Of a DNA stretch of 64,000 bases, positions 18,366 to 61,427 are shown piece by piece. The DNA is from a candidate division FCPU426 bacterium (GTDB taxonomy: Bacteria > Oederibacteriota > Muellerivitia > Muellerivitales > DAHXKG01). Position numbers and translations under genes: made by a program. The DNA lies in contig DAHXKG010000002.1 in the NCBI GenBank assembly GCA_027366525.1, positions 62,001-126,000 of the forward strand, given 5' to 3'. Each line of letters begins with the position of its first letter. Within the stretch, counting starts at the first letter, position 1. The notes beneath the pieces were generated by a model. It was not told the origin of the DNA. It ran no database searches and was given only the letters and a program-made list of their open reading frames with translations.

Positions 18366-18791
18366 ATGGTAAAACGTTTCTTGAATTTTTTTTTATTAAC
18401 ACTTATATTTTTTTTACAAATGGTTATGGTTTCTTCTGGTTATGCTGAACAAACCATTTATTTAATAAAAAAGGGCTATACGAATCCATGCATTCATTAT
18501 GGAGTGCTACAAATGAAAGCTTTTTATAATGTGGGCATGATGGATTATAAAAAAAAGCGTTATCTAAAGGCTATTCGTTTTTTAAAAGAAGCATTAAAAA
18601 TTCATGATCCATATACTCCAAAGTATTATTATGGGCAAGCGGCTGCAATACTTGGAATCATTTATCAGAATTATTTTACAGTTCCCAGGCATAATCAGAT
18701 AGCAAATGCTTATTTTAAAAAAGCTTTAAGTTTTGATCCTAAAAACAAATGCGCTTTAAAACAAATGGATTTACTTACCATTAAAAAATAG
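18366..18791 (+). CDS. Small exported TPR-repeat protein, function unknown
   Basis: 141 residues. A hydrophobic signal sequence covers residues 1-26 (ending SSGYA before EQT). The rest is helical and resembles two tetratricopeptide units: about 50-80 (YKKKRYLKAIRFLKEALKI) and about 90-125 (ANAYFKKALSFDPKN). Two Cys flank the repeats. It follows hemL by 12 bases and is probably the last gene of the transcript. It overlaps the convergent ymdB by 11 bases. Likely periplasmic; no specific function can be assigned. Confidence 0.75.
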   Translation: MVKRFLNFFLLTLIFFLQMVMVSSGYAEQTIYLIKKGYTNPCIHYGVLQMKAFYNVGMMDYKKKRYLKAIRFLKEALKIHDPYTPKYYYGQAAAILGIIYQNYFTVPRHNQIANAYFKKALSFDPKNKCALKQMDLLTIKK

Positions 18792-19563
18792 TGCGACGTA
18801 TGCGTTCAATTCTAAAAGATTTTCCAGTTTCTTCATTGATAGAAATGGTTACTGCTTGAAATACATAGGGTGGCTCTTCAGCACCTTCAAATCTAGTTGG
18901 AGCGGCTGTTAAAAATCGTTGAATCACCATTTCTTTTTTTACTCCAATGACAGAATTGGTGCACCCAGTCATGCCGATATCGGTTAAATAGGCAGTTCCA
19001 CGCGGAAGAATTTCTTCATCGGCGGTCATGATATGAGTGTGCGTTCCAGTTACAGATGATACACGGCCATCAAGATACCAAGCTAGCGCTCTTTTTTCAC
19101 TGGTGGCTTCAGCATGCATATCAACAATAATAATTTTTGCCTTATTTTCGATTTCTTGAAGTATCGAATCAGCAGTTTTAAATGGGCAATCAATGGGATA
19201 CATAAAAACTCTACCCATTAAATTTATAACAGCGATGGGAATGTTTTTACAAGAATAAATTCCAAATCCAGTTCCCAAATTACCAGATGGATAGTTATGA
19301 GGACGTAATAACCGGGGATCCTTTCCTAGCACTTCTTTTACTTCCTTCTTAGCCCATATATGATTTCCACTGGTAACTACATTAATACCCATTGATAATA
19401 ATTCTTGAAAAGACTCTGGCTGGATACCAACTCCACCCGCAAGATTTTCACCATTAGCAACAATAAAATCGATGGAACATTCATTTTTTATCTGATTGAG
19501 GCAATTGCGGAGTACTTGACGTCCAGGTTTTCCGACAATATCTCCAATTATCAAGATATTCAT
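18781..19563 (-). CDS. ymdB: YmdB-family metallophosphoesterase
   Basis: Calcineurin-like phosphoesterase of the YmdB family, whose members hydrolyse 2',3'-cyclic nucleotides; 260 residues. Metal-binding motifs are GDIVGKPGR at the N terminus, NGEN, SGNHIW, DMHAEATSEK and GTHTHIMTAD. GAGGGG lies just before the ATG. It is the last gene of the 6S RNA - fau - ymdB group on this strand. In Bacillus ymdB follows rny; no rny is present here. Confidence 0.92.
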   Translation of the reverse strand: MNILIIGDIVGKPGRQVLRNCLNQIKNECSIDFIVANGENLAGGVGIQPESFQELLSMGINVVTSGNHIWAKKEVKEVLGKDPRLLRPHNYPSGNLGTGFGIYSCKNIPIAVINLMGRVFMYPIDCPFKTADSILQEIENKAKIIIVDMHAEATSEKRALAWYLDGRVSSVTGTHTHIMTADEEILPRGTAYLTDIGMTGCTNSVIGVKKEMVIQRFLTAAPTRFEGAEEPPYVFQAVTISINEETGKSFRIERIRRTIF

Positions 19564-19659: not shown

Positions 19660-20226
19660 TTAACAGTTGACTATTCTTTTTTCGCTAAGGATAAATTGAA
19701 TAGGAATATCATAGCTTAACACCGGGATTTCAGGAAAAATTTGAAAATCATAACAAACTCCATAAATTAAGCACTTTGGATTAAGCAAAGGTAATAGACG
19801 ATCATAAAATCCTTTTCCATGTCCCAAACGATTGCCGTTCAAATCAAAGGCTAAACCTGGAACTAATAGTATTTCAATATCATGAAGCATTTTTTTTCGT
19901 TTTGTCCTAGGTTCTAAAATATTAAATTTTCCTTTATCTAATAAACGTAGATCTTTGATATGGGAAAAAAATAAATTCGATTTTTCGATGAATGGTAAAA
20001 ATAATTTTTTTTTGGAATCTAATATTTTATAAAGTATGGGCTGAATTTGAATTTCCAATGGAGTTGGGTAAAAGGCAGCAATGTTTTTAAAGTGAATTGG
20101 GAAAATATTTTTTTCAAAATTTGAATATAATTTCTCAGAACTATTTTTTATAAAATGATTGGATAAACAAGCTAGCTTTTTTGAAATTTTTTTTCGGATT
20201 AAATTTTTTTTTTGGTTTATTTCCAT
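19660..20226 (-). CDS. fau: 5-formyltetrahydrofolate cyclo-ligase
   Basis: ATP-dependent enzyme converting 5-formyl-THF to 5,10-methenyl-THF; 188 residues. The family signature GHGKGFYDRLLP is near the C terminus, preceded by VPGLAFDLNGNRLG. The N terminus is Lys-rich (IRKKISKKL), as usual. It lies downstream of the 6S RNA on the same strand, the arrangement known from gammaproteobacteria (ssrS-ygfA). That supports both calls. Confidence 0.93.
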   Translation of the reverse strand: MEINQKKNLIRKKISKKLACLSNHFIKNSSEKLYSNFEKNIFPIHFKNIAAFYPTPLEIQIQPILYKILDSKKKLFLPFIEKSNLFFSHIKDLRLLDKGKFNILEPRTKRKKMLHDIEILLVPGLAFDLNGNRLGHGKGFYDRLLPLLNPKCLIYGVCYDFQIFPEIPVLSYDIPIQFILSEKRIVNC

Positions 20227-20240
20227 AATTATCTTTTAAT

Positions 20241-20260
20241 AACACAAGTATTTTTGTGTT
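20241..20260 (-). other. Stem-loop between 6S RNA and fau
   Basis: A 7-bp inverted repeat (AACACAA / TTGTGTT) with a 6-base loop sits 15 bases ahead of the fau start. No long T-run follows on the minus strand. It might be a leader structure or an RNA-processing site; function unknown. Confidence 0.3.
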
Positions 20261-20454
20261 TCAATTTTATATGTTTGACTAAAAGCAACAAGACGACTAA
20301 GTGCTAGAGGCATGAACATAATGATGAGTGAAATAAGAATTTTTTTGAGTTAGCAGACATTTAATTTTAAAATTTTTAAAACCAACCAAATGGATTCAAT
20401 TTATAGCTTTGCACAATTTATAAACTAAACGTGGTACGATTTCCATCGTTGTAT

Positions 20455-20640
20455 TCATTCTCCGCTTGTGTCGGTTGCTGCAGTACTTTTTTTGAGACCT
20501 GATATGATCAGGTGGGTACTTATCGCCAAGGTTCTTTTGAGTTCCAATTTGGAACTGCATCCCCATGTCGGTGCAAGCACCCGTTAATTTGTTTGTGGCT
20601 CAAAAATTTCCCACATCAATTGTCGAACACGGCAGAGAAC
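20455..20640 (-). ncRNA. ssrS: 6S RNA
   Basis: About 186 nt read on the minus strand. The 5' end (GTTCTCTGCCGTGTTCG) pairs with the 3' end (CGACACAAGCGGAGAAT) in a long, slightly interrupted closing stem. Internal 6S-like landmarks are TGAGCC on the 5' side of the central region and a stable hairpin ACCTGAT-CAT-ATCAGGT on the 3' side, at the place where E. coli 6S has its CCUUGAACC hairpin. A strong promoter lies directly upstream and fau directly downstream. 6S RNA binds the housekeeping RNA polymerase by mimicking an open promoter. The family call is by structure and synteny; a covariance-model search was not possible. Confidence 0.85.
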
Positions 20641-20648
20641 TATTTATT

Positions 20649-20676
20649 ATTTTATCTTTATTTGTAATCTTGTCAA
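20649..20676 (-). promoter_or_regulatory. Sigma-70-type promoter of 6S RNA
   Basis: On the minus strand: -35 TTGACA (20671-20676), 16-base spacer, -10 TAAAAT (20649-20654), then 8 bases to the first base of the predicted 6S RNA at 20640. The -35 is a perfect consensus. Confidence 0.75.
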
Positions 20677-20811
20677 TTATTTGTAGTAGCTACATTGGTT
20701 ATTGAAAATTTAATTTTTAAAATATATTTTATCAAGATTTATTTTATGTAAAATTGAGTACTATTTCTATACTATGTTTATGAATGCTGAATAATAAATT
20801 AAGGTTTGAAT

Positions 20812-21072
20812 GTGTTAAAAACAAAAATTAGCGTATACAATATGTCTGCTTTGACAATTAGTATGCTGATTTTAATTTCGCTTGCTCTTTTACCAATTAT
20901 AGTTTTAGTAGCCATTTTTATTTTAATTATCAGTGCAATGGTAAGGATAAAAAATATTTTAATTAATCACCATAGAAAAGCTGAAGAAGTAATTCAAAAA
21001 CCAGAACAGACCTTTTCAGATTTTCAGACAATTGATGTTTATTACGAAGCGCATGATGAACTCAAAAAATAA
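20812..21072 (+). CDS. Small membrane protein, function unknown
   Basis: About 86 residues. One long hydrophobic stretch (about residues 10-44, LTISMLILISLALLPIIVLVAIFILII) could form one or two helices; a basic then acidic cytoplasmic-type tail follows. GTG at 20812 is preferred because AAGG lies 7 bases upstream; the TTG at 20806 is too close to it. The gene ends 19 bases before the preferred glgP start, so the two are probably co-transcribed. I do not recognise the family. Confidence 0.6.
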   Translation: MLKTKISVYNMSALTISMLILISLALLPIIVLVAIFILIISAMVRIKNILINHHRKAEEVIQKPEQTFSDFQTIDVYYEAHDELKK

Positions 21073-27286: not shown

Positions 27287-27943
27287 TTAATCTAAGACTG
27301 CATCGATTTTTTTAAATAAAGGATGTAAGCGGTCTTGCAAAAGAGAGTCTAGATTCGATGAAGATGATTGTAATTGAAGCGATTCCATATTTTTTTTAAG
27401 GTTACTAATTTCCAATTGCAACTCAGATATATTTTTTTGAAGCTCAGATTCTGAGGCTACATGATCTGTATTTTTCTTTTCTAATTCAGTAATGGTTTTT
27501 GAAAGGAGTTCTTTATCATGAAGATCTGATTGGAGTTGGTTGATCTCCTCACGATATTTTTTTTCTACATCCTTAAAATCACTAGAGATTTTTTTAAAGC
27601 GATCTAATTCTTGTTGTAAAGATTGTATCTGGTTTTTTAAAAAATCTTGATTTTGATCATCATAGTCTTTGCGCTTTTTTAAATCAGCAACTGATTTTTC
27701 AGAATCTTCTAATTGTTTTTGTAAATTTGATTTATTTTTTTCTAATCGATAAAGTTCATCCGCAATATTTAAAGCGGTTAGAATAGCTACTTTGGTAGCT
27801 GGGACGGATGTTTTTTGGCTTATTTCATTCATCTTGGAATCAACATATTTGGCAAGATCTAGGATATAATCGGCATTCGCTTCACCTTTTAGCGTATATT
27901 CATTACCATAAATTTGAACTGTTACTGATTGTTTATCTAACAT
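27287..27943 (-). CDS. zapA: ZapA-like cell division protein with long coiled coil
   Basis: Residues 1-70 match ZapA, the FtsZ-ring-stabilising protein: VTVQIYGNEYTLKGEA, then YILDLAKYVDSKMNEI and KVAILTALNIADELYRL. Usual ZapA is about 90-110 residues; this one has 218, the extra ~130 being an almost uninterrupted charged coiled coil rich in Gln, Lys and Ser. It is third in the pheT / coiled-coil / zapA set. AAGG lies 5-8 bases before the ATG. Confidence 0.88.
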   Translation of the reverse strand: MLDKQSVTVQIYGNEYTLKGEANADYILDLAKYVDSKMNEISQKTSVPATKVAILTALNIADELYRLEKNKSNLQKQLEDSEKSVADLKKRKDYDDQNQDFLKNQIQSLQQELDRFKKISSDFKDVEKKYREEINQLQSDLHDKELLSKTITELEKKNTDHVASESELQKNISELQLEISNLKKNMESLQLQSSSSNLDSLLQDRLHPLFKKIDAVLD

Positions 27944-39095: not shown

Positions 39096-39782
39096 ATGGA
39101 ATTGTTAAGAGTTGAAAATGTTTTTAAAAGTTATTATTTAAATAAACAAGAGATTCAAGCAGTAAAAGGAATTTCTTTTTCAATAGAAGCCGGTGATATA
39201 ATTGTAATTGTGGGATCTTCGGGTTCGGGCAAGAGTACGTTGCTAACTTTGTTGGGTGGATTGCTAAAACCTAGTCGAGGAAAGGTTTTATATAAGCAAC
39301 AATCTTTATATACGCTTTCAAATGGCCGGTTGTCAATAATTAGAAATCAAGTATTTGGTTTTGTTTTTCAATTTCATTATCTAATTTCTGAATTGACAGC
39401 TCGTGAGAATGTAATGTTACCTGCACGTATAGCCAGAAAAAAAATTAATGAAACGGTAAAAAGAGCGGAGGAATTGTTAGAACAAGTTGGAATGAAAGAT
39501 CGTATGAATCATAAGCCAGGAGAACTATCCGGTGGTGAGCAGCAACGCGTTGCAGTATGTCGTGCATTGATGAATCAACCAGAGGTAATTTTTGCGGATG
39601 AGCCAACAGGAAATTTAGATATTAAAACAGCAGAAGGGGTACATGATGTTTTATGGAATCTGTGCCAAAAAACAGGGACATCATTAGTAGTAGTTACTCA
39701 TTACGAACCATTAACTCAGCGTGCAGACCATGTTTTAACATTAAACGAAGGAATGGTAATCAAAAAAAGGAGTTTGAATTAA
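39096..39782 (+). CDS. lolD: Lipoprotein-releasing system ATP-binding protein
   Basis: ABC ATPase of the MacB/LolD group, 228 residues. Walker A GSSGSGKST, the Q-loop region VFQFHYLISELTARENVMLPA (typical LolD), signature LSGGEQQRVAVCRAL, Walker B VIFADEPTGNLD and a switch His in VVTHYEP. It partners LolC upstream, though 128 bases and a possible promoter separate them. The stop overlaps the mcsA ATG by one base. Confidence 0.95.
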   Translation: MELLRVENVFKSYYLNKQEIQAVKGISFSIEAGDIIVIVGSSGSGKSTLLTLLGGLLKPSRGKVLYKQQSLYTLSNGRLSIIRNQVFGFVFQFHYLISELTARENVMLPARIARKKINETVKRAEELLEQVGMKDRMNHKPGELSGGEQQRVAVCRALMNQPEVIFADEPTGNLDIKTAEGVHDVLWNLCQKTGTSLVVVTHYEPLTQRADHVLTLNEGMVIKKRSLN

Positions 39783-40354
39783 TGCTTTGTCAGAAATGTC
39801 ATCAAAGACCTGCCACAGTTTTCCTTTCCCAAACTGTTGGGCAAGAAACTTCGCAGGCACATTTATGCGAGGAATGTGCTCAAGAACAAAATCAGTTTTA
39901 TTCTGAATTTTTCCCATTTAATCCATTTGCGGAAGTTACTAATTTTATTAATGGTTTATTAGTTTTTGATCAGGAACAACCCAATGCTCCAGATATGAAT
40001 TTTGAAAAAAATGAGTTTGAAACAACCGAAAAACAGTTGCAGTGTCCTCATTGTGGATATCAGTGGGTAACATTTAGACAAAATGGCCGATTAGGATGTC
40101 CAAAGTGTTATGAAGCATTCAGCCGATATTTAGAACCACTAATATCGAGTATTCATGGAAATGTTCAATATCCTGAAGAAAATCCGATGGATGAATCTAA
40201 AAGTGTTAAAGACAAGAAAGAAGATAGTGCGGAAGATACACCACTTAAGCAATTAAGGACCAGTTTACAAAAAGCAATTCAACAAGAAAACTTTGAAGAG
40301 GCTGCAAAAATTAGAGATGAAATAAAAAAACAAGGATCGCAACATGGCTTTTGA
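39782..40354 (+). CDS. mcsA: McsA, activator of protein arginine kinase
   Basis: Zinc-binding partner of McsB; 190 residues. Four CxxC pairs in two groups are seen: CQKC (3-6) with CEEC, and CPHC with CPKC. A C-terminal UVR-like helix hairpin, LRTSLQKAIQQENFEEAAKIRDEI, completes the family layout. The frame is open far upstream inside lolD, but the N-terminal MLCQKCHQRPA at 39782 is the canonical start. It overlaps mcsB by 11 bases. Confidence 0.93.
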   Translation: MLCQKCHQRPATVFLSQTVGQETSQAHLCEECAQEQNQFYSEFFPFNPFAEVTNFINGLLVFDQEQPNAPDMNFEKNEFETTEKQLQCPHCGYQWVTFRQNGRLGCPKCYEAFSRYLEPLISSIHGNVQYPEENPMDESKSVKDKKEDSAEDTPLKQLRTSLQKAIQQENFEEAAKIRDEIKKQGSQHGF

Positions 40355-41405
40355 AGAGCTTTTTATTCCTGAGAATAATTGGTTTTTTCAAAAAGGGAAC
40401 AAAGAAGAAGTGGTTGTTTCAAGTAAAATCCGACTTGCAAGAAATTTAAATGAAAAAAAATTCCCAAATCATGCAAGCGCGAATGAACAATTGGAGATTA
40501 TAAAAATTATTACGGATACACTGAAGTTGTGCCCGGAATTTGAAAAATTAAATTTAATCTCCCTACAAGATATTTCTTCATTGGATCGCCAATTTTTAAC
40601 GGAGCATCAATTGATTTCAGCAGAACATGCGGGAAGCTTGGGAAATCGAGCAGTGGGTTTTCAATCTCAGGAAGGAATTAGTTTTCTCATAAATGAAGAA
40701 GATCATTTGCGACTTCAAATTTTTGATACGGGATTAAATCTTAAAAAAGCATTTAATCGTTTACTTCGAATTCAAAATGAGTTGGAGAGCAAAGTGGTTT
40801 TTGCTAAAGATGCTCGTTGGGGGTATTTAACCGCTTGTCCAACTAATTTAGGCTTGGGAATGAAGGCAAGTATTTTGGTTCATTTGCCAGCTTTAGTTTA
40901 TACTAACCGTATTTCACAGGTCTTGCAAAGTATCGCTCAGGTTGGTTTATTAATTCATGGACTCCAAGGCGAAACGACTCAGATTGCAGGTTCGTTTTTT
41001 CAAATTTCGAATCAATCATCTTTAGGCAAACGGGCTTCAGAAATTCTTGCATTAGTTGATCGGATGGCACACCAATTGGTCGATGTGGAATTGCAAACAC
41101 AGCAAACACTATTGAAACAAGAAGGAATTAAAATTCAAGATCGAATTTGTCGAGCTTTTGGAATGCTTAAAAATGCGAAAATGCTATCGATGGAAGAAGC
41201 GCTCGATGGAATTTCGGCATTGAGGTTTGGTGTTTCACAAAAAATATTGAACGGATTAGACTTGCCAAAAATCAATACACTTCTCATTTTAATGCAATCA
41301 GCACATTTAATTAAAAAACAAAATCGTGAAATGAGTGAAGATGAGCTTTCAATTCAAAGAGCGGATTTAGTGCGTAGTTACTTAAAAGAAGTGGAAGTTT
41401 TATAA
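40344..41405 (+). CDS. mcsB: Protein arginine kinase McsB
   Basis: Phosphagen-kinase-like enzyme that phosphorylates arginines on proteins, marking them for ClpC-ClpP; 353 residues. Visible motifs: SSKIRLARNLNEKKFP, LINEEDHLRLQIF (the NEEDH active-site segment) and RWGYLTACPTNLGLG with the reactive Cys. Order and overlap with mcsA and clpC follow the Firmicute operon, but the ctsR repressor gene that heads it there is missing. Presence in a cell with LPS and outer-membrane genes is noteworthy. Confidence 0.95.
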   Translation: MAFEELFIPENNWFFQKGNKEEVVVSSKIRLARNLNEKKFPNHASANEQLEIIKIITDTLKLCPEFEKLNLISLQDISSLDRQFLTEHQLISAEHAGSLGNRAVGFQSQEGISFLINEEDHLRLQIFDTGLNLKKAFNRLLRIQNELESKVVFAKDARWGYLTACPTNLGLGMKASILVHLPALVYTNRISQVLQSIAQVGLLIHGLQGETTQIAGSFFQISNQSSLGKRASEILALVDRMAHQLVDVELQTQQTLLKQEGIKIQDRICRAFGMLKNAKMLSMEEALDGISALRFGVSQKILNGLDLPKINTLLILMQSAHLIKKQNREMSEDELSIQRADLVRSYLKEVEVL

Positions 41406-41435
41406 ACATATTAATTTAATGATTGGAGTGCTTTC

Positions 41436-43886
41436 ATGTTTGAAAGATTTACAGAACGCGCAAAAAAAGTAATTAATCCTTTATCTAAAGAGGAATCACG
41501 GCGCCTTAATCATAACTTTATTGGAACAGAACACTTATTGTTGGGATTAATACGCGAAGGAGGAGGAGTTGCTGTTGCGGTTTTAGAATCATTAGGAATT
41601 GACCTTGAAAGCATTCGCATCGAAGTAGAAAATATTACTTCTCCGTCATCGGATACGCTGACAATTGGCGATCCCCAATTTACTCCCTCAGCCAAAAAAG
41701 TTTTGGAGCTAGCAGCGGAGGAATCGCAAAAATTAGGACATAATTATATTGGTACGGAACATCTTTTATTAGGGTTAATTCAAGAAGGGGAGGGAGTTGC
41801 AGCGCGTGCACTTGAAAATTTAGGTATCGTTTATGAAAAGGCACGCGATATGGTGATAAATCTTCTAGGTGGAACATTTCCAAAATTTTCCAAACAAGTG
41901 AAAAAGTCAAAAACGCCTGCATTGGACGCATTTGGGAGAGATTTAACACAAATGGCTCGTGATTTAAAATTAGATCCAGTCATTGGTCGGGAAGATGAAA
42001 TTGAGAGAGTGGTTCAAATTTTATCTCGACGAACCAAAAATAATCCTGTACTTATTGGAGAGCCTGGTGTTGGGAAAACTGCAATTGCCGAAGGATTGGC
42101 ACAACGAATCAAAGAAGGTAATGTGCCTGAAACTTTGTCAGATAAACGAATTGTTACATTGGATTTAGCAGCCTTGGTAGCAGGGACTAAATATCGTGGT
42201 GAATTTGAAGAACGTTTAAAAGCAGTTATTAATGAAATACGGCAGACACAAAAAGTAATATTATTCATTGATGAATTACACACCTTGGTTGGCGCGGGGG
42301 CGGCTGAAGGAGCCATTGATGCATCAAATATGCTAAAGCCCGCCTTGGCTCGAGGCGAACTTCAATGTATTGGCGCTACAACATTAAACGAATATCGAAA
42401 ATACATTGAAAAAGATGGTGCATTGGAAAGACGATTTCAAATGATCATGGTAGATGAGCCGAGTGTTGAAGAAACGATAGAGATCATTAAAGGTCTTCGG
42501 GATCGATACGAAGCACATCATCGCGTGCGAATTACCGATGATGCTATTGTTGCTGCTGCCCAACTTTCTCATCGCTTTATTTCTGGAAGATTTTTACCTG
42601 ATAAAGCAATTGATTTAATTGATGAAGCAGGCTCGAGAACTCGATTGCGAGTTACCACGATGCCACTTGCAATTCGTAATTTAGAAAAAGAAATCGAAAA
42701 AATCAAACAAGAAAAAGAAGCGGCCATTAAAACACAAGAATTTGAACGTGCAGCAGACTTAAGAGATAAAATTAAAAAAATGCGCCAAAAATTACAAGAT
42801 GAAAAAGAAAAATGGGAAAGTAAAAAATCCAAGGAAGAGGCAATTGTGGGATGGGAAGATATTGCTTATGTAGCCTCTAAATGGACTGGTATCCCAATGA
42901 TTAAATTAGAGGAAAAGGAGTCTGAAAAGCTTTTAAGAATGGAAGAAGAATTGCATAAGCGTGTTGTGGGACAAGATGAAGCCATCCAAGCCATTTCAAA
43001 AGCCATTCGAAGAAGTCGGGCGGGTATCTCGAATCCTAAGAAACCGATTGGTAGTTTTATGTTCTTAGGGCCAACCGGAGTCGGAAAAACAGAATTAGCC
43101 AGATCCTTAGCCAGTTTTCTTTTTGATGATGAAGATGCTTTAATACGATTTGATATGAGTGAATATATGGAAAAATTCAATGTATCGCGATTGGCGGGAG
43201 CGCCTCCAGGGTATGTAGGACATGATGAAGGAGGACAATTAACTGAGCGAGTTCGTCGGAAACCTTACAGCGTTGTTTTATTTGATGAGATTGAAAAAGC
43301 TCATCCAGAAGTATTTAATTTAATGCTGCAAATTCTTGAAGATGGCCGCTTGACAGATAATTTAGGTCGGGTTGTTGATTTTAAGAACACGGTTGTAATT
43401 ATGACGAGTAATTTAGGTGCTCGTGAAATAGGGGTTGAAAAAAATTTAGGATTCCAATATGCCGATGAAACAATTTCATTTGGAAGTATAAAAAACAAAA
43501 TACAATCAGAAGTTAAAAAATTATTCAATCCTGAATTTTTAAATAGAGTTGATGAAATTATTATATTTCATCCCCTCGAGAAAGGACAAATTGAAAAAAT
43601 TATTGATCTTCTTTTAGAAGATGTACAAATGCGATTAAAAGATAAAAAAGTGACTTTAATATTAGACGCAACAGCAAGAGATTTTTTAATTGAGAAAGGA
43701 TATGATCGAGTTTATGGAGCACGTCAAATGAAACGAGTTATTCAAAAATATATTGAAGATGCATTAGCTGAAGAAATTCTAAAAGGGTTAATAAAAAATG
43801 ACGAACAGATCGTCATTTATGCTAAAAATGATAAATTTGAATTCAAGTCCCAGGCTCCCACTTCAGCCGCTATTACATTGAGTTAA
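41436..43886 (+). CDS. clpC: ATP-dependent Clp protease ATPase ClpC
   Basis: AAA+ unfoldase working with ClpP; 816 residues. Two Clp-N repeats (about 1-145, with [11 protein letters not shown] twice), AAA-1 with Walker A GEPGVGKT (K214), a mid-region UVR domain (about 430-465, [15 protein letters not shown]) that marks ClpC rather than ClpB or ClpA, then AAA-2 with GPTGVGKTE (K551) and a C-terminal D2-small domain. Last of the mcsA-mcsB-clpC set and 10 bases ahead of tamB. McsA/McsB act as its adaptor and tag writer. Confidence 0.97.
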
Positions 43887-55784: not shown

Positions 55785-58700
55785 GTGGCTGGAAGGAATA
55801 AATTGTTAATTGATATTTTCCAATTCAGCAAAAAATTTTTTTTTTTGTTTATTGTTTTATTAATTGCTATAGTGTCAAAGTATGCACATGGTCAAAATCT
55901 AGCACCAAGTTTAACGAATCCCTCTCTAGCTCCAGCGCTTTCTTCAAATATTAAAACGATTTTGCAAGCTCCTGAAACGATCAAAACGGTAGTGACACCT
56001 CAAGGCAATACGCTGACCGTTCGGTCTCGAAAATTTTTACTTCCGCCGGGGCATATTTTTTTAAGAAATCTGCCTATCGGGATATATGTTTCTTGGCACC
56101 CCCCCCGGCATGAAAAAAAGATTTCTTATAACGTTTACCGTACTACGATTCCTGGAGCGGATTATCGACGCATCAATGCGCAGCCCGTTACACAAAACTT
56201 TTTTTTGGATGGTGCGCACAGCTTACATCCGCCGCAGAATCATCAAATTTATTTTTATGCGATCGAATCGGTGAATAAGCAAGGTCATGAAAGTGGTTTA
56301 TCGTATGAAATGGTTATTAAAACTCGAAATTTACATTTATCGCGTGCTATTTCACCGGCGATGTTGGCGCGGATGATTTCAAATTCCAACTGGAAAGCAC
56401 CGCATGAAAGCTTGAATTTATTAAATCTTCCTGCTAATGGAGCGATTAATTTGAGCCTTCCAGAAGAAAGTAAACTTTCTATACAAGGCTATAAAAAAAT
56501 ATCGACCCAAATTAATTGGCAAAAATATTACGTCAGCGCTATTAATGGAGTCTCGCCCAACAATACTACAACCAATGTGGACCAAGAGTTGGTACTCAAC
56601 TTAAATGGTGAAATAGGCAAAAATGTGGATGTTCATGTCAATTACAGCGATGTTAACCGCACCGGAACACTCTCGTCTAGTAATCAGCAAATTTCGTTGG
56701 CGTATCATGGTAATCCCAATAGTGCAATTCAAGAAGTGGCGTTTGGCGACTTAACAATGGGGTTCGAAAATACACAATTTGCCGGATTTAACCAGCAATT
56801 ATTCGGTTTAAAAGCTAAAGCGAAAGCTGGACCATTGCATGTAAAAGCTTTTTTTGCCCAAACTACGGGTCAAGTGGCCACACAAACATTTACGGGGAAT
56901 TTGGTCCAACAATCGGTGACCATACTCGATACAAGTTATGTTCAAGGAAAGTATTATCTTATTACCAAACAATTCATTTCTGGGCCTGTTGCCGGAGAAA
57001 ATTATGCATTACCCGAGAACGGGAGTGAGCAAATTTATGTCAGTTCCGGTAATTCAGTAAGCATCACGGGAGGCAGTAACTATATTGGAACGTTTCAACA
57101 TTATTTACCGGGCGTTGACTATACCATTAATTATTCAACTGGTGTCATTACTTTTTCACAGCCCATTCAACCCAATCAGGAAGTTGCAGTGGGTTTTATT
57201 CAAAAAAATGGAACTCCCGTAGGACTGACCCCGACGGGACAGATTAATTTAGATCCCGCTACATTAAATGTTCCAAGCGATGGCATTATTACGAATGCGG
57301 CACATTTGCTTAAACAAAATACGAATCCGGCAGAAGTCAGTCCGTTATATTTAATGAATTACTATTTCTTAGGAACGGCCCCAATTATTCCACCATTAGA
57401 AGATCCTAATTTTATTTTTCAAATTATTAATCAAGGGACCAATGCCGTAGTGGAAAGCAATACTACCCCCAATCCACGATGGACATTTCAAATTAATACG
57501 AATTTGAATTTATTAATTATTGATGATACCACCAATACGGTTTATCCGGAGCGTCCCTTTGCGAATCCAGATGGGGGCACGAGTTCAGGTGATGTTTATA
57601 GTCAAACCACCACTCCCAATAGTCTTTATCGGATCTATATGCAGTACGAAACACAAGTGAACTTTTTTCAATTGAATCAAATTAATATTATCCCATATAG
57701 TGAAGCGGTTTTTTTGGATGGCCGACGATTAATACGAAATGTTGATTATTATATTGACTATACCACCGGGCTTTTGAGTTTTGCTAACCCATCAATGATT
57801 CAACCCAATAGTCAAATTGTGGTAACATATGAATATTCGCCATTTGGATCATCCGCTCAAAGTAATATTTTTGGAGCCCAACTGCAATTGGATTTAACCC
57901 AAAATTTAAAAGTCGGTTCAACAGTATTATATAATTCTGGAACTCAACCGACGGAAATCCCTCAAATTGGTTCAACGCCGAATTCATTAAGCCTGCTGGA
58001 TGCGAATTTAAGTTATAACCTATTTCCCAAGGATTATTTTTCAATAACACGACTTATTCCAGGGTTGGGACGTTGGAAACCTCCCATTAAAACTCAAATC
58101 ACGGCAGAAATTGCTCAAAGTCAATTTTCGCCTAACACGTATAGTATGGATGGCGAATCGGGTGTGGCAATGATTGATTCCATGCAAGGCATTGATACAA
58201 CCGTTGGACCATCGATTGATCCCAATCCATGGATTGTTTCATCAGCTCCTTTGCCAGTGCCGTTTTTAAATGAGGTTAACTATTATGCGGGCCCTGGGGC
58301 TTCAAACAATCGCATTCGATTTCGTAACGGACCTGAAATTTTTGGAGAAAATCTTCCAAATCAAAATGGAGGCGAGCTCTATTCCATTACAGGGAATCCA
58401 TCAGATGCGGTACCAACTTTACAATTTCCATATGCGGATCTTACGAATCAGCGATGGGGAGGTTTGAGGCAAGTGTTATCGCCAACCGGCATGGACATTT
58501 CAAGCTCTAAATATTTGGAGGCTTGGGTTTATAATGATGGTGTGAATAAATGGATTATGTTTGATTTTGGAATTATTTCAGAAGATTCAACGGGAACGGG
58601 AAATTTTTATTATCCGGCAACGCCGCAGGTGCCCTATCAGAATACAGGAATTCCGACGTATTATTTTACCAATCCCAACACCCCCACGACGGGTCCTGCC

Positions 58701-61427
58701 GATGAAACTGGAGCAACTCAAGAAGGTCGTAATGATGGAATTTATGATACCGAAGATATTAATGGAAATAATGAACTCGATACCACGAATTCATATTTTG
58801 AGTTTGGAATCGAAGCGAGTTGGAAAGGATGGCAATTAATAAAAATTCCAATCAATTTCTCATCGCCAGCAGAAACGGCCACGACTTCCACTGGCATTAA
58901 TTATTTCTTTTATCCAGTCAATTCACCCAGCCCACAGAATGTTCAAGCGGTTCGAATTTGGGTTACCGGGACGTCTTCCACTCCAGCGAGCGGAATGTTT
59001 TTATTGCAGTCAGTCGAATTAGTGTATAACCAGTGGCAGTTAGAAGTCGGGGCGACCGCGGCAAGTCAAGGTGCTCAAATCAATCCCAATAAGTTTAATG
59101 TTTCAACAATTGATCAAGAAGATGACCCTAGTTATTCACCAGATTTGAATTTTATTACGATTCAGCCCACGCAAAATCAAAACACCGTGGATACCACACA
59201 ACAGGCTTTGAAAATTGATTATCAACTATCCTCCGAGGATTATTATCCAACGGGAGATGTAGGTGGACATCCGATTTATATGGCCACAAGATTTTTTGGA
59301 ACCCCAATGGATTTTACAAATTATTTGTACCTTGCCTTGGATCTTCAGGCTAAAAATTTCAGACCGGGGGATATTCTGTTTATTCGACTGCAAAATGATG
59401 CAAGCGATTATTTCCAATATAATTTTCCGATTACAAGTGCGGATCTGAATACCTGGCAGACGCTATCGACGCCGATAGATGGGAGTGGAGGGAATCGCGA
59501 TCAAGTGGGTCAACCATTTTTAAATCAAATTACTCAAATTAGTATTGGAGTGCTTTCACCCAGCCAACCTGACGGAATTACCGATGAGTTGTGGTTGACA
59601 AATTTACGAGTTTATGGATCCAACAATCGGATTGGGGGAGCGCAACGATTAGATACCACGTCAATCGTGGGGAATAATTTTATGACCGTGAACACCCGAT
59701 ACCAAGAAGAAGATGCGGGATTCTCAGAAATGGATCAAACGAGCACGCGTTTTCAGGAAACCAAAGATATTGGATTCGATCTTTCCTCCTCGGGGATTAA
59801 ATTGTTTTCTCAACCTGTTTTTACGGATATCTCGTTTAGTAGTGATCAACGCCTTACGCCAGATAGTTTAAAAAACAATCCTTTTTATGAAAATTTAAGT
59901 AATTATAGTAGTTCAAGTTTAATTGGAAAAATCAGTTATAATGGACTAACGCTTCCAATTGGGCTAGGACAGATATCGAATATCCAAATATCCGGCACGA
60001 CCGATACGCAAGCAAATACATATTTGCCATCGTATGCAAGTCAACTAGGAGTGCAAGGGAATAATGATCAAGGTGAAACAAGTTATTCATGGACCGGGAC
60101 GTACCATGCACCACCGGTATTTTTGGGATTGCCTCTAGGAATGAACCAAGTGATTGAGGGTTATTCATATAGTCGCGATTTTGAAAATTTTAATAATCCG
60201 GAATATTATAATTATATGCGACAAACGACCATTCAATCCTATGCTTGGACGAATTCAACTCCCATTTTTAAAAATTTAACCATTACTCCCGGGTACACGT
60301 GGTCCTTAACGGAGGCACAAGGGAATACCAATTTTGCCGGCCAAGCGGGATTTGTGAATAATTATGTGATTTTCCAAAAACAAATGCAGCCCACCTTGGG
60401 CGTTATTTTTCAAGCTATTCCAGGCGTTGTTTATTCTGGGAACTATACGGGACTGAATAATCAAAATTATGCACAAACGCCCGAGAGCCAATATACGATT
60501 TCAAATTCCTTGAATAATACGTTAACCTTTTCACCCGGCGTGTGGCTCCCGTTTTTTCAAAAAATTGGATTATCCGGTAGTTTTGAACGGTCCGATAGTT
60601 CCAATGCGTCCATTTTGAATTTTTCCAGTTTAGCGCCGTTGCAATTTTCACAAGCCTGGGGCTTTAACACTCCTAATAATTTTGCGTATACCGATAATCG
60701 GACGATTTCCGATCAGGCTTCCTTGAATGCGAATCCGTTATCGGTTTTAAGCTTACAATCCAATGTATCTTGGAATAATCAAATAAGTGTTTTATCACCA
60801 GGCGCCGCTCCGGTTCAACAATTAGGAGAAACGGTGGGAATTAGCAGTATTTGGAATCAAGCCATTGTCCATTTTCCAATACTCAATTTTGAAATTGATT
60901 TATTGCAATTACAATATACCTTGAATACGTCAACACAATATGACGCATCCTTTCCGCCCCAAATTGTTAATCAAACGGTTTCAGATGGCTATGGCATTAC
61001 AGTGCCATACGACATCAATCACCATGAAGCTCAGGGACGAATTTTGTATCAATTAACCGAGGGATATGCTTTAAACCGAGGTATCATCACAACGACGCAG
61101 GATTATCAAACGACTCTTGAATATGATCAAAATTTTTCGGGCACCAAAATTATTGGGATCCCGTTTACGAATTTGCATATTGAATTGGTTAATGCGATTG
61201 AAATGCAGATCCTGCTTTCAACCAATTTTTCTAGAGGCCAATCGTCATATTTTTATGATGAAGTATATTCCGATACGTACACAGCCAATCTCAATTTAAA
61301 CTATGATGTGATCAGTAATATTTTATTTGGGCTTCAATTAGCTCGAACTGAATATTTAAACTTTTTAATTCCAACAGAAAGCTATAATCTTTATCAAGCG
61401 ACCATTTCAATTGAGGCAAAATTTTAA
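55785..61427 (+). CDS. SprA-like giant outer-membrane protein (type IX translocon family)
   Basis: 1880 residues, GTG start with GGA about 10 bases upstream, signal peptide about 1-37 (ending HGQN). A fibronectin type III-like domain lies at about 85-182. Then a segment closely follows the SprA N-terminal pattern: LPEESKLSIQGYKKISTQ, ELVLNLNGEIGKNVDVHVNYSD, NSAIQEVAFGDLTMGF, then QQLFGLKAKAKAGPLHVKAF. A repeated unit of the form PGVDYTINYSTGVITFSQPI occurs twice. At about 981-1000 comes the SprA-type acidic stretch DGIYDTEDINGNNELDT. The C-terminal third looks like beta-barrel strands and ends in Phe. In Bacteroidota SprA is the ~2400-residue type IX secretion translocon; this is shorter. Family call from sequence memory; transport role inferred. 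Confidence 0.8.
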   Translation: MAGRNKLLIDIFQFSKKFFFLFIVLLIAIVSKYAHGQNLAPSLTNPSLAPALSSNIKTILQAPETIKTVVTPQGNTLTVRSRKFLLPPGHIFLRNLPIGIYVSWHPPRHEKKISYNVYRTTIPGADYRRINAQPVTQNFFLDGAHSLHPPQNHQIYFYAIESVNKQGHESGLSYEMVIKTRNLHLSRAISPAMLARMISNSNWKAPHESLNLLNLPANGAINLSLPEESKLSIQGYKKISTQINWQKYYVSAINGVSPNNTTTNVDQELVLNLNGEIGKNVDVHVNYSDVNRTGTLSSSNQQISLAYHGNPNSAIQEVAFGDLTMGFENTQFAGFNQQLFGLKAKAKAGPLHVKAFFAQTTGQVATQTFTGNLVQQSVTILDTSYVQGKYYLITKQFISGPVAGENYALPENGSEQIYVSSGNSVSITGGSNYIGTFQHYLPGVDYTINYSTGVITFSQPIQPNQEVAVGFIQKNGTPVGLTPTGQINLDPATLNVPSDGIITNAAHLLKQNTNPAEVSPLYLMNYYFLGTAPIIPPLEDPNFIFQIINQGTNAVVESNTTPNPRWTFQINTNLNLLIIDDTTNTVYPERPFANPDGGTSSGDVYSQTTTPNSLYRIYMQYETQVNFFQLNQINIIPYSEAVFLDGRRLIRNVDYYIDYTTGLLSFANPSMIQPNSQIVVTYEYSPFGSSAQSNIFGAQLQLDLTQNLKVGSTVLYNSGTQPTEIPQIGSTPNSLSLLDANLSYNLFPKDYFSITRLIPGLGRWKPPIKTQITAEIAQSQFSPNTYSMDGESGVAMIDSMQGIDTTVGPSIDPNPWIVSSAPLPVPFLNEVNYYAGPGASNNRIRFRNGPEIFGENLPNQNGGELYSITGNPSDAVPTLQFPYADLTNQRWGGLRQVLSPTGMDISSSKYLEAWVYNDGVNKWIMFDFGIISEDSTGTGNFYYPATPQVPYQNTGIPTYYFTNPNTPTTGPADETGATQEGRNDGIYDTEDINGNNELDTTNSYFEFGIEASWKGWQLIKIPINFSSPAETATTSTGINYFFYPVNSPSPQNVQAVRIWVTGTSSTPASGMFLLQSVELVYNQWQLEVGATAASQGAQINPNKFNVSTIDQEDDPSYSPDLNFITIQPTQNQNTVDTTQQALKIDYQLSSEDYYPTGDVGGHPIYMATRFFGTPMDFTNYLYLALDLQAKNFRPGDILFIRLQNDASDYFQYNFPITSADLNTWQTLSTPIDGSGGNRDQVGQPFLNQITQISIGVLSPSQPDGITDELWLTNLRVYGSNNRIGGAQRLDTTSIVGNNFMTVNTRYQEEDAGFSEMDQTSTRFQETKDIGFDLSSSGIKLFSQPVFTDISFSSDQRLTPDSLKNNPFYENLSNYSSSSLIGKISYNGLTLPIGLGQISNIQISGTTDTQANTYLPSYASQLGVQGNNDQGETSYSWTGTYHAPPVFLGLPLGMNQVIEGYSYSRDFENFNNPEYYNYMRQTTIQSYAWTNSTPIFKNLTITPGYTWSLTEAQGNTNFAGQAGFVNNYVIFQKQMQPTLGVIFQAIPGVVYSGNYTGLNNQNYAQTPESQYTISNSLNNTLTFSPGVWLPFFQKIGLSGSFERSDSSNASILNFSSLAPLQFSQAWGFNTPNNFAYTDNRTISDQASLNANPLSVLSLQSNVSWNNQISVLSPGAAPVQQLGETVGISSIWNQAIVHFPILNFEIDLLQLQYTLNTSTQYDASFPPQIVNQTVSDGYGITVPYDINHHEAQGRILYQLTEGYALNRGIITTTQDYQTTLEYDQNFSGTKIIGIPFTNLHIELVNAIEMQILLSTNFSRGQSSYFYDEVYSDTYTANLNLNYDVISNILFGLQLARTEYLNFLIPTESYNLYQATISIEAKF

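Follow-up and report, generated by a model that had tools for sequence, protein, structure and literature searches.

Does the minus strand of the window, as we call the whole 64-kb stretch of DNA analyzed here, encode a 6S RNA, and what does the gene order around it tell about its history? A well-formed 6S RNA had been proposed at this locus in the initial annotation, and a search with the Rfam 6S RNA family RF00013 had been named as a check. This search was run and revealed a match at 20641..20455 on the minus strand that covers the full length of the model (positions 1-187) with 64.7 bits, compared to a curated cut-off (gathering score) of 46.4 bits, and with an E-value of 1.6e-10 calculated for the whole window. 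RF00013 was the sole Rfam family over cut-off within the window, and a search of the whole 2.02-Mb genome returned this single 6S match. The bounds of the match serve as predicted ends of the 6S RNA gene (ssrS, 20455..20641, minus strand, 187 nt). The 187-nt RNA folds with -60.2 kcal/mol, compared to -43.2 +/- 4.0 kcal/mol for shuffled sequences (n = 200), which gives a z-score of -4.24; none of the 200 shuffles equalled the 6S RNA. Together with covariation across the order and a conserved promoter (see below), the match bears out the proposal. The locus is almost certainly the minus-strand 6S RNA gene of this genome, read from a sigma-70-type promoter, and its expression would be expected from family membership.

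The RNA is predicted to form the standard 6S rod, in which a closing stem, a central bubble and a terminal stem-loop are accompanied by a hairpin on the bubble's 3' side, all on the minus strand. The long closing stem that had been anticipated is present: its 5' strand (20599..20640) ends in TTTTTGAG, which is paired with CTCAAAAA, and its 3' strand lies at 20457..20496; fold and covariation agree on both. The 5' strand of the central bubble (20583..20598, CCACAAACAAATTAAC) is unpaired in the predicted fold, and the expected TGAGCC element was located at 20602..20597. The predicted terminal stem-loop (20514..20582) includes an apical hairpin (20556..20540). A further hairpin had been noted in the 3' half of the central region, and indeed ACCTGAT-CAT-ATCAGGT is predicted to fold there (20513..20497). 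In the alignment of the order, this hairpin (helix 7) has 100 % of its cells paired and three of its six pairs changed on both sides.

Two extra small hairpins had also been suspected, and here the outcome was divided. GTTCC..GGAAC is identical to the apical hairpin, and its five pairs have probabilities of 0.999 to 1.0. GGTGC-TT-GCACC, an alternative pairing that competes with the terminal stem, was rejected from the fold (pair probability 0.0 for 5/5 pairs). It remains unused because, in the terminal stem, GGGTGC has GTACCC as its partner, and it was also absent from two folds of the window's RNA that were constrained to represent the state bound by product RNA. Length, closing stem, central bubble with its 3'-side hairpin, TGAGCC element, terminal stem-loop, sigma-70-type promoter and the presence of a single match in the genome are all shared with the 6S/SsrS family (RF00013), and no feature marks the window's RNA off as a separate class. 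The locus is a well-formed, ordinary 6S RNA, a new representative of a known family from a lineage that has been sampled poorly.

A 6S match was obtained in all eight other genomes of the order that were searched; in five of these it stayed under the gathering score of 46.4 bits (44.6, 44, 43.4, 43, and 39.6 bits). When the nine sequences of the order were aligned, 17 of the 51 consensus pairs showed double changes that keep the pairing. Furthermore, 96.5 % of the cells were paired and none of 500 shuffles reached any of five measures, a test that related sequences can pass without any structure. Sliding the partners by 1 to 3 columns reduced the pairing from 96.5 % to 38-52 %, a control biased in favor of the consensus structure, which was drawn from the same alignment. 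The motif GAGCCACAAA in the 5' strand of the bubble, the putative template region, is identical in all nine 6S sequences. Folding of single sequences recovered the closing stem in eight of nine cases (13 to 16 pairs), G002 being the one that lacks it. Covariation support for the pairs of the apical hairpin (helix 6) was not found in the alignment, because the window's own hairpin is offset there. The apical hairpin of the window reads AGTTCCA-AAT-TGGAACT, compared to CTTCTTCGGAAG in the eight sister sequences.

The 6S gene carries its own predicted sigma-70-type promoter at the 5' end, identified at the level of motifs. The perfect -35 element and the good -10 element noted initially are both in place just upstream of the gene on the minus strand: TTGACA (20671..20676) and TAAAAT (20649..20654) are separated by a 16-nt spacer and match the consensus in 11 of 12 positions. 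Promoter-like sites are not rare in the AT-rich stretch around 6S (six observed versus a mean of 3.4 in shuffles); the case for this promoter is carried by its conservation in relatives. In the upstream alignment of the nine genomes of the order, TTGACA is identical in eight (G002 has TTTTCA) and TANAATA is found in all nine.

According to the accessible parts of three papers (PMC8414754, PMC4227106, PMC9130861), 6S RNA sequesters the RNA polymerase holoenzyme and is freed by the synthesis of a product RNA. For the window's 6S RNA we infer polymerase binding, product RNA and release from the family. Its rod would imitate an open promoter, bind the polymerase that carries the primary sigma factor and keep it blocked when nutrients are exhausted. 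During recovery, the polymerase would copy the 5' strand of the bubble from 20595 (plus or minus a base or two) into a short product RNA of about GUGGCUCAAAAAUUU, and this synthesis would open the GAG/CUC pairs, so that the polymerase would be released. The putative template (20595..20612, minus strand) was placed by analogy with what the available text of PMC8414754 describes; if synthesis starts opposite C47 of the RNA (20595), the product would be 5'-GUGGCUCAAAAAUUUCCC. An adenine adjoins the putative start upstream, as the same part of PMC8414754 reports for other 6S RNAs. The GG of the product would fall at positions 3/4, whereas positions 4/5 or 5/6 are given there; a start one base upstream (a U) would shift it to 4/5, and the predicted start is therefore uncertain by a base or two.

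Binding of the product RNA was modelled crudely, by forcing 14 or 18 template nucleotides to be unpaired in a refold. In this model the window's RNA lost the GAG/CUC pairs, kept all others (55/55 with 14 nt, 53/53 with 18 nt) and gained no new pair. Large refolding was predicted in four of the nine sequences with 14 nt (G002, G003, G004, G007) and in five with 18 nt (the same four and G008). Since the window's RNA keeps all its other pairs, release via wide refolding is not supported for it in this crude model. On the protein side, the window's genome encodes three proteins with sigma region 1.2 (PF00140), and a 628-residue frame with this region is likely the primary sigma factor. The sigma-factor family PF04546 had no match in this genome, a search that was positive in just two of 14 controls.

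How widespread is 6S RNA around this lineage? Among the 59 genomes searched, the window's own included, 43 had a 6S match at E <= 0.001. This first genome search found 6S in 38 of the 45 genomes of the phylum and in all nine of the order, five of which scored under the gathering cut-off. Among the genomes searched, the window's is the sole member of its family. A model built from the nine sequences, which recovered the positive control G001, was run on the seven phylum genomes without a match and found one more (G012, 57.7 bits with the Rfam model), so that the tally rose to 39 of 45. Outside the phylum, a direct Rfam scan detected a 6S RNA of 62.4 bits between zapA and fau in G055 (L064:969..1153) that both whole-genome searches had overlooked. 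The tallies are therefore lower bounds, and misses of the nine-sequence model are no evidence of absence. When this model was applied to 18 chosen loci (of 68), 15 matched at E <= 1; L021, L061 and L063 were unmatched up to that threshold. A scan with the neighboring glycogen phosphorylase, which may not cover the window's own record, gave 13 loci; the best three share 53-55 % identity and carry the labels Candidatus Melainabacteria, 'bacterium' and Proteobacteria. In the genomes of the best five of these loci, 6S was found in three, one of them over the gathering score. The zapA-fau gap of G013, a member of the phylum, contained no 6S RNA by either Rfam or the nine-sequence model. An inverted repeat of about 67 nt (L063:1055..1121) lies in this gap, where some other genomes carry 6S; both of its strands show a weak resemblance to a microRNA model, with scores far under the cut-off.

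The gene downstream of the window's 6S RNA had been named as fau, and this was confirmed: fau (5-formyltetrahydrofolate cyclo-ligase; 19660..20226, minus strand; PF01812, E 2.2e-35) is the next gene, on the same strand and 228 nt away. The conserved neighborhood includes a gene for a ymdB-like phosphoesterase (18781..19563, minus strand; PF13277, E 2.4e-106). About 6.6 kb upstream of 6S lies zapA (27287..27943, minus strand; PF05164, E 6.7e-18), with glgP on the opposite strand and other genes in between. A simple scan of 20200..20830 revealed no terminator on the minus strand between 6S and fau, and the fold of the 228-nt spacer is not better than expected by chance (z -0.35). Since only these 228 nt separate 6S and fau, rarA is certainly absent at the 6S locus. 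A model of the rarA C-terminal domain gave no candidate in the window's genome (97.5 % complete), and a protein search for rarA returned one weak match only (G000:C22:103970-104446, window 41970..42446), which falls inside a frame at 41436..43886 that we take for clpC. Hence, rarA is likely missing from the whole genome, the assembly of which is incomplete.

Other frames of the window were observed alongside. Between 6S and glgP, 20806..21072 (plus strand) holds an 88-residue frame with a hydrophobic first half and no Pfam match. A 107-residue frame of similar build and ending occupies the same place in L033 (5271..5594), so that the 88-residue frame may be a real gene for a small membrane protein. 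A very large predicted protein of 1880 residues is encoded at 55785..61427 (plus strand), adjoined by opposite-strand frames that we take to be lptF/lptG. Frames at 39653..43886 (plus strand) presumably represent mcsA, mcsB (arginine kinase) and clpC, in a succession well known from Firmicutes. The window also holds frames that look bamA- and tamB-like.

In the sister family (f2), the order of genes is 6S, rarA, fau and ymdB, with glgP divergent. All eight genomes of f2 have rarA after 6S on the same strand. Six have fau after rarA, although in G003 the match to fau starts only at profile position 48; in the other two, G007 has a fau fragment at a contig end and the contig of G008 stops inside rarA. 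The ymdB gene follows in all six whose contigs reach that far, and glgP is divergent on the other side of 6S in seven of eight; in the eighth, G004, the contig does not extend far enough. Beyond glgP, zapA lies within 4 kb of 6S in G001 and G006; it is about 20 kb off on the same contig in G002, on a separate contig in four genomes and was not found in G007.

Across the phylum, the rarA C-terminal domain model matched in 42 of 45 genomes; besides the window's genome, G043 (82 % complete) and G044 (61 % complete) were unmatched. In 18 of the 38 phylum genomes with 6S in the first search, namely all eight of f2 and ten in f4, f5, and f12, this domain starts at a distance of 0.8 to 1.1 kb from 6S, downstream and on the same strand. 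In another 19, compared by hand and many with short contigs, the 6S contig carries neither the listed rarA nor any listed fau. The one remaining genome is the window's. A block of rarA then fau was found in f2 only; of the ten genomes of f4, f5, and f12, nine have fau on a different contig and one yielded no fau. The 6S-rarA linkage looks old in the phylum, and its extension by fau is seen only in the window's order. Beyond the phylum, L061, taken from the genome of a Kiritimatiellales record, also has rarA after 6S, and zapA-6S-fau occurs in G049, G055, and G058 (at this place, the zapA match of G058 is weak, E 4.6e-4). G045 has zapA before a 6S match that scores below the gathering score.

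These data bear on two other readings of the locus. An RNA upstream of fau on the same strand, 228 nt apart, could be a cis-acting leader of fau, such as a riboswitch-like element, instead of a separate regulatory RNA. In the sister family, however, the RNA precedes rarA and not fau directly, so that it is retained although its downstream neighbor varies. Throughout the phylum, rarA is the next gene in 18 of 38 genomes and 19 others lack a listed rarA or fau on the contig, and the spacer toward fau has no unusual fold. We therefore regard a fau leader as extremely improbable. The RNA could also be an Ms1-like RNA, which would bind core RNA polymerase without sigma, and not a true 6S RNA; Ms1 is described as structurally related to 6S RNA in the part of PMC9130861 available, which places it in Actinobacteria. 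The full-length RF00013 match in a window with no other Rfam family over cut-off and the identity of GAGCCACAAA in the template region of all nine sequences speak against it and make this reading very unlikely, if slightly less so than a leader. A true 6S RNA with its own promoter is the reading that we retain.

The two linkages of this 6S RNA gene are each already published separately, as far as the accessible portions of the papers go. The order zapA-ssrS then fau is given for many gamma- and some beta-proteobacteria (PMC7641849, available text), and ygfA (fau) beside 6S for alpha- and gamma-proteobacteria and some beta-, delta-proteobacteria or Firmicutes (PMC9130861, available text). Likewise, rarA adjoins 6S, upstream, in nearly all lactic acid bacteria (PMC8414754, same limit). 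As in Proteobacteria, the window has 6S directly before fau and zapA upstream on the same strand, but its zapA is about 6.6 kb away with the oppositely oriented glgP in between, and the sister family has rarA inserted between 6S and fau. As in lactic acid bacteria, rarA is next to 6S in the window's relatives; in contrast, it lies downstream on the same strand in the 18 of 38 phylum genomes, and the window's own genome has no detectable rarA. We found no published description of 6S-rarA-fau as one block in the accessible parts of the papers compared, and since the main survey of 6S RNA across bacteria (Wehner et al., 2014) lay outside the comparison, we make no claim that the block is unreported.

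Because the 6S-rarA linkage looks old in the phylum, a loss of rarA in the window's lineage is favored over a gain in f2. The ancestor of the order might have carried a block of 6S, rarA, fau and ymdB with zapA further upstream, from which rarA was later lost in the window's lineage; for this full scenario we see the chances as evenly balanced. If it is true, the ancestral block would unite two linkages known from different groups, that with fau from Proteobacteria and that with rarA from Firmicutes, and the proteobacteria-like 6S-fau look of the window would have arisen through loss of rarA. With this analysis, an uncultured lineage gains a well-supported 6S RNA, which belongs to a family that is common in this phylum (39/45); beyond lineage and gene order, the biology of 6S RNA is unchanged. 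The neighborhood is the mildly new part, with the apparent loss of rarA as a small evolutionary point, and the comparison of gene orders offers a small, testable history of why the neighbor of 6S is fau in some bacteria and rarA in others.
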